NCBI GenBank assembly: GCA_026713865.1 | Contig: JAPONQ010000087.1 | Span: 1-64,000 of the forward strand | Length of the DNA stretch: 64,000 nucleotides | From: Chloroflexota bacterium | GTDB taxonomy: Bacteria; Chloroflexota; Dehalococcoidia; UBA2979 | Direction of reading: 5' to 3' | Shown here: piece after piece, positions 1 to 64,000 of the stretch | Numbering within the stretch: the first letter of the stretch is position 1 | How the letters are laid out: every line of letters begins with the position of its first letter | Notes under the pieces: model-generated | The model's input: only the letters and a program-made list of their open reading frames with translations | Told to the model about the DNA's origin: nothing | Databases searched by the model: none | Translations under genes and position numbers: made by a program

Positions 1-48
1 CAGCTCCAGCCGCGTGACCGGTGTCAGACGCGCGTTACGATGTGCCAT
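1..48 (-). CDS. IS481-type transposase, N-terminal 16 codons only (runs off the window)
   Basis: Read on the minus strand from ATG at 48, the frame gives MAHRNARLTPVTRLEL and continues past base 1. This matches the usual start of IS481-family DDE transposases, whose N-terminus (MAHxNARLTPxxRLxL, leading into a helix-turn-helix) is well conserved. Only the beginning is visible, so intactness and the element's far end cannot be judged. A long imperfect inverted repeat lies directly upstream of the start codon. The family call rests on 16 residues plus context, since another transposase remnant lies about 2 kb away. Confidence 0.6.
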   Translation of the reverse strand, partial: MAHRNARLTPVTRLEL

Positions 49-107
49 AGGGGGTTCCTCTCTACTGCTCGTGCTTTGACTTCACACGGCAGTAGACGGA
101 GCCCCCT
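49..107. repeat. Imperfect inverted repeat upstream of the IS481-type transposase start
   Basis: The arm at 49-68 (AGGGGGTTCCTCTCTACTGC) is matched by the arm at 89-107, whose reverse complement is AGGGGGCTCCGTCTACTGC. They differ by two substitutions and one inserted base, with a 20-base spacer between. The hairpin abuts the transposase ATG, so it could be part of the element's terminal region or could hide the start codon from read-in translation. The element boundary and any target duplication cannot be fixed from one end. Confidence 0.5.
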
Positions 108-279
108 ACCTGTAAACAACCTCTATGGGAGCGACAGCTAGGGAGCGCACCGCCCTGCAGCCGGAGAGGCCGGCGCGGGCCGTGCCGGCGGGGATGGACA
201 GCGTGCAGCGGGTGTGCCGGCACGGCCCGACCTGAATCGAGCCCGAGACGCGCCGACTAGAAGCGTCGCGCGGGCGCCC

Positions 280-708
280 TCAGGGAGCGGTTCCCTCCGA
301 CTCGGCGTCGCTCCAGAGGCCCATGCCAACCGTGACGAACAGCATGGGCAGCACCACGTCGATCAACACCCACACCTGCGCGTCGGGCGTCTGATCGCCC
401 GCCGACCACGAGATCTGAAAGGCGTTCCACAGGAAGAGCAGCGTGAGTCCCGCCGCCACGAAGAACTGCGTGTTCGCCACGAGGTACGCGCGAAGATCCG
501 ACCCCCGGTCCGCGCCGCGCTTCGCGATGAACGTGGCGTAGAGCGCGATCGCGAGGCCGACCCCCATCAGCCAGTCGAGCGCGATCCACGCGGCGGGCAC
601 GCCCTCTCCCGACTCCCACTCGTAGAGGAGGGGATCCAGCACGAAGTGGATCGCCACCGCGGCTCCCACGACTGCGAGGTACGCTCCCGCCAGACGCTTC
701 ACCCCCAT
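280..708 (-). CDS. Small four-helix membrane protein, unknown function
   Basis: This 142-residue protein starts at ATG 708. I see four hydrophobic segments at about residues 5-27, 38-61, 74-96 and 112-132, joined by short loops, with a hydrophilic acidic C-terminus. There is no signal peptide or recognisable catalytic motif. The plan resembles small DoxX-like or uncharacterised inner-membrane proteins, but I do not recognise a family. It stands alone: the upstream side is a 325-base stretch with no gene and the downstream side is the transposase edge. Hydrophobicity pattern and composition support it as a real gene. Confidence 0.65.
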   Translation of the reverse strand: MGVKRLAGAYLAVVGAAVAIHFVLDPLLYEWESGEGVPAAWIALDWLMGVGLAIALYATFIAKRGADRGSDLRAYLVANTQFFVAAGLTLLFLWNAFQISWSAGDQTPDAQVWVLIDVVLPMLFVTVGMGLWSDAESEGTAP

Positions 709-1033
709 CGTGATCAGCCCTCCGTTTCACTGCGACTGCGAATCGGCCGACGTGCGGCGCGCCGCTTCCCGCGGCGACCGGCCGTACGCTGCGGGCCGGA
801 TCGCGTCGGGCCGCGCCCGCGGGGCGGGGGGCGGTGCCGCGCGCCCGCGACGGCGTCGTCGATGGTACATCCGTGAGGTTCGGGCGCATGCCCGCCGCGA
901 CCGCCACAGGCGAGACCAGGGTCATCGTGTCGGCGCCCCGAGAGCGTCGCGGAGGAAACCGCATCACGCCCGTGCTATCGTCTAGCAGGCGCGTCGCCCG
1001 ATCGGGCTTCGCGGTGAGCTGATGGAGGCAGAG
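709..1033. other. Intergenic stretch with no gene
   Basis: This lies between the divergent genes at 280-708 and 1034-1342. Open frames here have arginine-rich composition typical of antisense reading in GC-rich DNA and no start signals or motifs. I see nothing functional beyond room for two divergent promoters, and no clear -35/-10 pair. Confidence 0.5.
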
Positions 1034-47376: not shown

Positions 47377-48323
47377 CGCCTCCGGAGAACCCGATCGCCG
47401 GACTGCCGCCCATGCGGGAGAGCCCGCCGGGCGGCGTCCGCGCCCCCCTGGTCGCGAGCGGCAAGGTGCGCGAGATCTACGAGCTGCCCGGCGAGAAGCT
47501 CCTGCTCGTCGCCACCGACCGCATCTCGGCCTTCGACGTCGTGCTGCCGCAGGGAATCCCGGGGAAGGGCGAGGTGCTGAGCCGGCTCTCGGCGCACTGG
47601 TTCGAGCGCACGCGGGCCGTGGTGCCGAACGCCTTCGTCGCCGTGCTCGAGGAGTCGAATGCGAGGAGGCTCGGCGTCGACGCCGATGCGGCGTTCTTCG
47701 GCCGGTCGATGGTGATGCGCCGGGCCGAGCCGCTCCCCGTGGAGTGCGTCGTGCGCGGCTACCTCGCGGGCTCGGGCTGGAGCGACTACCGGCGGTCGGG
47801 CGCCGTCTCCGGTATCGAGCTGCCGCGCGGCCTCCGGCACGCCGACCGCCTCTTCGAGCCGGTCTTCACGCCCTCCACGAAGGCCGCGAGCGGCCACGAC
47901 GAGGCGATGACGCTCGACGAGCTGCGGCGAGCCGTGGGTGACCGGCGCGCGGAGGTGCTCAGGCTGCGCTCGCTCGCGCTCTACCGCTACGGAGCGGAGC
48001 GCGCCGCGGAGCGCGGCATCCTTCTCGCCGACACCAAGTTCGAGTTCGGCCTGATCGACGGGGAGCCGGTCGTGATCGATGAGGTGCTGACGCCCGACTC
48101 CTCCCGGTTCTGGCCCGCCGATCGCTACCGACCCGGTGGCGAGCAGGAGTCGTTCGACAAGCAGCCGGTCCGCGACTGGCTCGCGGCGAGCGGATGGGAC
48201 CGCTCGCCGCCCGCGCCCGATCTGCCGCCCGACGTCGTGCGCGCGACCGCCGATCGCTACCGCCGCGCCTACGACATCCTCACGGGCCCGCCTCCGGACC
48301 GCGCGGCAGGGACGCCCCGATGA
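47373..48323 (+). CDS. purC: SAICAR synthase
   Basis: This 316-residue protein has a GTG start at 47373. Typical sequences are SGKVREIYELPGEKLLLVATDRIS (split here at the usual place), VECVVRGYLAGSGW, and ILLADTKFEFGLID with VLTPDSSRFWPADRY and FDKQPVRDWL. It joins CAIR and aspartate using ATP. The first 25 residues ahead of LVASGKVRE form a longer leader than in short homologues. It overlaps purS by four bases. Confidence 0.96.
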   Translation: MTPPENPIAGLPPMRESPPGGVRAPLVASGKVREIYELPGEKLLLVATDRISAFDVVLPQGIPGKGEVLSRLSAHWFERTRAVVPNAFVAVLEESNARRLGVDADAAFFGRSMVMRRAEPLPVECVVRGYLAGSGWSDYRRSGAVSGIELPRGLRHADRLFEPVFTPSTKAASGHDEAMTLDELRRAVGDRRAEVLRLRSLALYRYGAERAAERGILLADTKFEFGLIDGEPVVIDEVLTPDSSRFWPADRYRPGGEQESFDKQPVRDWLAASGWDRSPPAPDLPPDVVRATADRYRRAYDILTGPPPDRAAGTPR

Positions 48324-63001: not shown

Positions 63002-63988
63002 TCACTCGCGAATCGGCCGATGGAGCCGGAAGCCGCGCCGGGCGATCGCCTGGGCGATGGGACCGTACTCCGGGCCCATCGGATCCATGCTTCTCATCCG
63101 CATGGTCCCGCGCTGGATCATGATGTCGCCCGGGGCGAGCTCGGTTGCGCTCTCGAAGTGCCGCGCCGCCGCCTCACCGCGCCCCTGCTCCCACAGCCAC
63201 TGTCCGAGCGCGAACTCGGCGCGCGCCCGCTGCTCCCCGGCCGCCGGCAGCCGCTCCCTGACGAGCTCGCGCGCCCGCTCCTCCGAGGAGAGCGCCGGCG
63301 CCTGGCCGCGGGCCCAGGCGCGCACGCGCTCGAGGTAGGCCTCCGGATCGACCCCGACGAGCTTCGCCGCGCGCGGGTTCATCACGGCGACGTCGTTCGG
63401 ACGGGCGATCCGACCCTGCTCGTCGATCCAGACGATCGTTGGGACGTTGAACATGTTGTAGAGCTCGGGCACACGGTGGTGCGCGTCGACGACCAACGGG
63501 TAGCTCGCCCCGGCCGCCTCGATCCAGGGCAGCGCGTCGGCCAGGTTCCGGTCGACCATCACGCCGAAGACCGTGAACGGGAGCGCCTCCTGCTCGGCCA
63601 GCTGGTGGTGGAGCTCCTGCCACACGGGCAGGTCCTCGCGGCAGCCTCACCAGGAGGAGTGCACGGTCAGGACCACCTTGGCGCCCCGGTGGTCGGAGAT
63701 CCGGTGCAGCCTCCCGGCCGCGTCGGGGAGCTCGACGTCGGGCGCCTCGAGGCGTGCCAGCGGCGCGGTCCGCTCGGCGGCGGAGGCGCCGAGGGCCGCC
63801 GCCCGCTCGGCGAGGTCGAGAGCGAGCGGGCGCCCGAGCGCCTGCGCCAGCGCCGCCAGGTCGAGGCCGTCGCCGGAGGCGAGCGCCGCGGCGTCGGGAA
63901 CCGGGACGCAGAGGGCGCCGCGGCAGAGCCCCTCGGTTTCGAGCCGCCAGCCGAGATCGCGCGCGACGTCGTCGGCCGAGAGGTGCAC
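63002..63988 (-). CDS. Redoxin/TlpA-like thioredoxin-fold selenoprotein with in-frame UGA
   Basis: Reading from GTG 63988 (the true start may lie beyond 64000), the frame gives a 328-residue protein in which codon 114, TGA at 63649-63647, interrupts APDVELPDAAGRLH...VVLTVHSSW-UGA-GCREDLPVWQELHH. This is the exact place of the catalytic Cys in the redoxin W-C-x-x-C-R-x-x-x-P motif, giving Sec-Gly-Cys. The same frame continues without a further stop through a normal redoxin fold (PFTVFGVMVDRNLADALPWI, SYPLVVDAHHRVPELYNMFN, VPTIVWIDEQGR with cis-Pro) and a helical C-terminal tail. A hairpin suited to be a bacterial SECIS lies 14 bases after the UGA. It probably reduces a thiol or peroxide substrate. 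A nonsense mutation is the alternative, but conserved sequence on both sides argues against it. Confidence 0.8.
63610..63635 (-). promoter_or_regulatory. Candidate bacterial SECIS element
   Basis: In the redoxin mRNA, CCTGCC (63632-63627) and GGCAGG (63621-63616) form a perfect six-pair stem closing a five-base loop CGTGT. Outer GGA (63635-63633) can pair with TCC (63612-63610) across a three-base bulge. The loop starts 20 bases after the UGA and has G as its second base. Distance (about 16-37) and a G in the first two loop positions are the accepted features of bacterial SECIS hairpins bound by SelB. Confidence 0.7.
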
Positions 63989-64000
63989 CGACTCCCCGTC

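Follow-up and report, generated by a model that had tools for sequence, protein, structure and literature searches.

ResA, TlpA and DsbE oxidoreductases carry a CxxC active site and are exported or membrane-tethered. Selenoproteins with a U-G-C motif have been listed since 2008, when a survey of ocean-metagenome selenoproteins included a UGC-containing Prx-like one (Sec in 46 sequences, Cys in 855; PMC2398784). A UGC-motif Prx-like/TlpA-like selenoprotein was also catalogued in PMC9312934, and a "UGC-containing TlpA disulfide reductase family protein" is named in PMC13188914. The NCBIfam family NF041054 (WAxxUGC_long) is labelled "ResA-like WAxxUGC motif-containing protein", and a literature search under WAxxUGC and under ResA-like with selenoprotein found no paper.

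Here, we analysed a gene at the end of a 64,000-nucleotide stretch of a Chloroflexota genome (the window, meaning the whole stretch). On the minus strand, standard ORF calling produced two ORFs of 146 and 207 amino acids on either side of a TGA codon at 63649..63647, in the context TVHSSW-UGA-GCREDLPVWQELH. Read through this codon, the full gene spans 361 codons, of which 214 sense codons lie open between the in-frame TGA and the terminal TGA at 63004..63002, and the window's last 999 bases carry most of it. Residue 147 falls within the motif W-U-G-C-R-E-D-L-P (longer context SSW-U-GCREDLPVWQ), and a search of the genome for the active-site motif returned one match only, at this gene. Judging from comparative evidence, UGA at codon 147 very probably encodes selenocysteine in a TlpA/ResA-like redox protein. 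The preliminary description had started the gene at 63988, but the GTG there is internal, and the start is likely the ATG at contig position 64087 (C87:64087), 87 bases beyond the window. The features of the gene are as follows.

63002..64000 (window part), minus strand: coding sequence of the predicted selenoprotein, 361 codons in full, with its start outside the window and its stop at 63004..63002; based on homologues
63749..64000 (window part), minus strand: N-terminal domain, residues 1-113, without a supported Pfam or PDB relative
63923..63925, minus strand: Cys55, first Cys of G-x-C-x4-C-V-P, invariant in alignments A1, A2 and A3
63908..63910, minus strand: Cys60, which completes the N-terminal C-x4-C, invariant in A1, A2 and A3
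63401..63748, minus strand: AhpC-TSA/TlpA-type thioredoxin-fold domain, residues 114-229 (Pfam PF00578, E 1.6e-13)
63647..63649, minus strand: in-frame TGA, putative Sec147 at the catalytic position (101 homologous loci: 71 TGA, 30 Cys)
63641..63643, minus strand: codon of Cys149, second redox residue of U-G-C, aligned with the resolving Cys of the ResA-type CxxC
63616..63632, minus strand: predicted bSECIS hairpin with a 6-bp stem CCUGCC/GGCAGG (63632-63627 with 63621-63616); comparative evidence
63134..63280, minus strand: C-terminal helical tail, residues 270-318, with one TPR-like repeat (PF13424 match under the cut-off, E 3e-4)

AlphaFold2 modelled the 332 in-window residues as one continuous fold (pLDDT 96, pTM 0.92). 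Foldseek gave DsbE/ResA matches at E about 1e-10, and the best solved relatives were DsbE, ResA and TlpA. When profiles were aligned with ResA-type proteins of solved structure, Sec took the place of the first Cys of CxxC and Cys149 that of the last, with one intervening residue missing. Hence the CxxC of the TlpA/ResA fold is replaced by a U-G-C site one residue shorter, matching the U-x-C site originally proposed. Cys149 is invariant in alignments A1 and A2, and profile alignment to 3kcm supports its placement. The N-terminal region, initially called unfamiliar, remained so: its 113 residues had no supported Pfam match (a single member of 54 gave a sub-threshold DUF7092 hit), and neither the PDB sequence search nor Foldseek under E 0.001 returned a match. 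The helical tail was also borne out, with helices in the model, TPR matches in the PDB profile search and the weak TPR at residues 270-318. A comparison with phage families returned no match.

We then considered the column of residue 147 across homologues. Among the 101 loci, which come from many phyla, TGA was found 71 times, Cys 30 times and any other codon never, in line with the expectation of Sec/Cys pairs at this position. A TGA that persists from phylum to phylum, replaced only by Cys, is not explained by chance. The protein tree placed eight Sec/Cys switches, six of them forced by supported branches. In the closest pair of copies (82% identity), the 213 codons downstream of TGA differed by 15, 14 and 49 changes at codon positions 1, 2 and 3, respectively, which indicates that substitutions after TGA are still codon-like. 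Eight genomes of the same bacterial class (G028, G234, G264, G291, G299, G307, G315 and G378) carry two TGA copies of the family, adjoining each other in all except G028.

A bacterial SECIS is described as having a loop of 3-9 nt, an upper stem of 4-16 bp, a G in the first two loop positions, a distance of 16-37 nt from UGA and an MFE of at most -7.5 (PMC13188914). The predicted hairpin falls within these constraints, having a 6-bp stem, a 5-nt loop (C-G-U-G-U, 63626-63622) with G at the second position and a distance of 20 nt from UGA; its 17 nt have an energy of -9.3 kcal/mol. The spacing from TGA to the hairpin is exactly 14 nt. The apical pair, C63626:G63623, corresponds to N:N' of the published pattern, although N:N' spans 3 nt as printed in PMC13188914 and the covarying N:N' here spans 2 nt (G-U). 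The resulting N-GU-N'-U layout is the same as in the E. coli fdhF loop G22-G23-U24-C25-U26 (read from NC_000913), in which G23 is a SelB contact (PMC8659212). When the 51-nt RNA was folded alone, another structure was preferred over the SECIS hairpin. The hairpin is a comparative consensus that differs from the best single-sequence fold, and, because single-sequence folding does not rank it best, we relied on comparative tests.

RNAalifold found the stem in TGA forms and not in Cys forms. The hairpin lies within the D-L-P-V/G-W-Q codons, where protein conservation alone could mimic a conserved stem, so we tested synonymous positions. N:N' joins the third position of the Pro154 codon to that of codon 155 (Val/Gly). 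These two bases are complementary in 66 of the 68 distinct TGA sequences (C-G 36, G-C 21, A-U 9), where within-residue shuffles give 30.7 and the codon usage of the individual genes gives 26.1. Of these 68 sequences, 66 likewise form the complete stem together with N:N', where own codon usage predicts 11.2 (sd 3.0); among the Cys sequences the count is 3 of 29, with 2.7 predicted. For Leu, TGA forms use CTG or TTG without exception, and Cys forms use CTC, CTA and TTA as well. On the tree, each partner of the apical pair has changed ~18 times, so the pairing does not reflect one inherited event. Phylogenetically independent pairs linked the hairpin to Sec state in the same direction in every informative pair, and were too few for significance. 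Its maintenance by synonymous covariation argues that the hairpin is not a chance fold. The preliminary description of a SECIS-like hairpin 14 nt downstream, with a 6-bp stem and a G in its loop, was thereby upheld, as was the idea that the stem would be kept across related sequences.

Decoding UGA as selenocysteine calls for dedicated machinery, and selA, selB, selD and tRNA-Sec were all found in the genome, as the preliminary description had anticipated for a selenoprotein. The tRNA-Sec scored 71.8 bits and has a UCA anticodon, selA scored 535 bits, selB encodes 614 amino acids with SelB winged-helix domains, and selD, cut by a contig end, scored 328 bits. The selD gene (L050, C67 of the same genome, positions 2-862, minus strand) is itself a selenoprotein candidate, with an in-frame TGA at CAG-U-AGK (SLASCAGUAGKMG). 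Within the window, ARAGORN called a tRNA of undetermined anticodon at 48181-48267 on the minus strand, which may be spurious.

Across genomes, selA was above cut-off in 26 of 30 with a TGA copy versus 8 of 29 with a Cys copy (21 of 29 without), with a Fisher p of 5e-6; because the homologues are related by descent, p values from permutation and from the Fisher test assume more independence than there is. selA went undetected in the TGA genomes G001, G065, G096 and G128, three with a completeness of 73-81% and one a MAG of unknown completeness; selB is present in G065 and G096, and in pieces in G001 and G128. In G001, the closest relative, selB lies in separate pieces (G001:C190:2693-4512), possibly due to a frameshift or assembly error, and the TGA gene copy is intact. 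In G128, a Rubrivivax MAG with a TGA copy (L130), selA could not be detected and selB is represented by a C-terminal fragment alone, possibly reflecting MAG incompleteness or contamination. The sole Cys copy found in the query's taxonomic family (L025) belongs to a 96% complete genome (G003) that has neither selA nor selB. This copy (L025 / L109, G003:C32:52931-53992) has a C-S-C site plus an extra Cys (WCSCRLCLP) and a decayed hairpin, with Lys in place of Gln there. Many lineages without Sec machinery retain the gene with Cys replacing Sec. The family therefore offers a clean natural experiment of repeated Sec/Cys swaps, in which the hairpin is supported by covariation in Sec forms and lost in Cys forms, mostly where Sec machinery is missing.

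These observations bear on other readings of the in-frame TGA. The two ORFs of 146 and 207 amino acids are what a true stop would produce, whether in a broken gene or as two separate polypeptides. It is very improbable, however, that a true stop would be kept across phyla with Cys as its sole alternative, be followed by continued codon-like substitution and lie inside a single continuous, high-confidence model fold, and a split here would part W from G-C within the active site. Sequencing or assembly error in place of TGC or TGG might be suspected in an assembly fragmented into 119 contigs, but the same TGA in a separately assembled closest relative (82% identity) and in about 70 other loci makes the chance of error negligible. 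Reassignment of TGA to another amino acid, such as Trp, would also account for an in-frame TGA being read through in the homology-based frame. We regard it as just as remote, given that the gene itself stops at a TGA where its closest relatives end, homologues carry Cys at codon 147 and the genome holds complete Sec machinery. Selenocysteine, as first proposed for this UGA, is instead favoured by the machinery, the Sec/Cys pairs in homologues and the recurrence of TGA in independent assemblies.

A separate question is what the selenoprotein does. A peroxiredoxin-type peroxidase is suggested by the Pfam AhpC-TSA/Redoxin matches and by the literature label "Prx-like (UGC-containing)" (PMC2398784). 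Against this, the alignment shows no Prx PxxxT/SxxC signature (a residue other than Pro occupies position -7), the nearest folds and profiles are those of ResA, DsbE and TlpA, and the resolving Cys lies two residues past Sec, making a peroxidase unlikely. We consider the protein probably a thiol-disulfide oxidoreductase, because a TlpA/ResA fold in which a Sec nucleophile is followed two residues later by a resolving Cys suggests thiol-disulfide exchange. It is likely cytosolic: by eye, the N-terminus shows neither a signal peptide nor a hydrophobic stretch, and in the model of a close homologue (L052) a strand begins already at residue 2 and covers residues 2-10.

On the comparative evidence, SelB and Sec-tRNA would decode UGA 147 as Sec, guided by the hairpin 14 nt downstream. 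Sec147 would then act as the nucleophile attacking an oxidised substrate such as a disulfide; Cys149, from its position and invariance, would resolve the intermediate via a U-G-C selenenylsulfide. Cys55 and Cys60 suggest a second redox pair, which, more speculatively, might recycle the site or accept electrons from thioredoxin. Such an N-terminal relay through Cys55/Cys60 is a proposal of low probability. Similarly doubtful is whether the query's clade, which scores under the cut-off of the sole curated model (NF041054), is a distinct two-centre selenoenzyme, in which the C-x4-C domain and U-G-C site would form an internal redox relay. SBP_bac_5 binding proteins flank the gene on both sides and an MFS transporter is nearby. 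Across the family, we found no shared gene neighbours or operon, with lipid-type genes recurring in some clades only; as no neighbours are common to the family, we claim no functional link. Standard ORF calling truncates or splits the protein, so this widespread redox enzyme is easily misannotated, a risk that extends to Chloroflexota, Rokubacteria, Actinomycetota, Myxococcota and others.

The preliminary suggestion of a possible new family gave way on comparison with described proteins. NF041054 matched at E 8e-61, aligning residues 34-238, which cover the N-terminal and redoxin regions, with profile positions 6-205. The score of 206.2 bits is below the curated cut-off of 300, which two relatives pass (L095 at 366 and L126 at 322) and a third does not (L053 at 249). 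All 20 tested homologues matched the profile (best E 7e-163), and on the tree the tested members passing the cut-off lie in one half and the query in the other. The query resembles NF041054 proteins in length, domain order, N-terminal C-x4-C region and U-G-C site, and differs as a sister clade with another C-terminal tail and with H-S-S-W rather than W-A-x-W before U. A short sister group (L134-L140 and L143; ~235 amino acids; WASWUxCREQLPVWQ) shares the site, SECIS loop and bacterial class of the query but lacks the N-terminal C-x4-C domain, and its member L134 scores 159 bits with NF041054. Sites in this group are U-G-C, U-A-C or U-K-C, and the loop covariation holds in seven of eight loci, including a U-A pair (CCT-GTA) in L136. 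The UGC-containing Prx-like/TlpA group of the literature has the same PF00578 or TlpA-like class and UGC motif, a likeness by description only. With ResA, TlpA and DsbE the query shares the fold and catalytic position, and it departs from them in its shorter U-x-C, the absence of a visible signal peptide and its extra N- and C-terminal domains. It is thus well supported that this gene encodes a genuine selenoprotein, not of a new family, but an added member of the catalogued UGC-motif group in an under-annotated clade.
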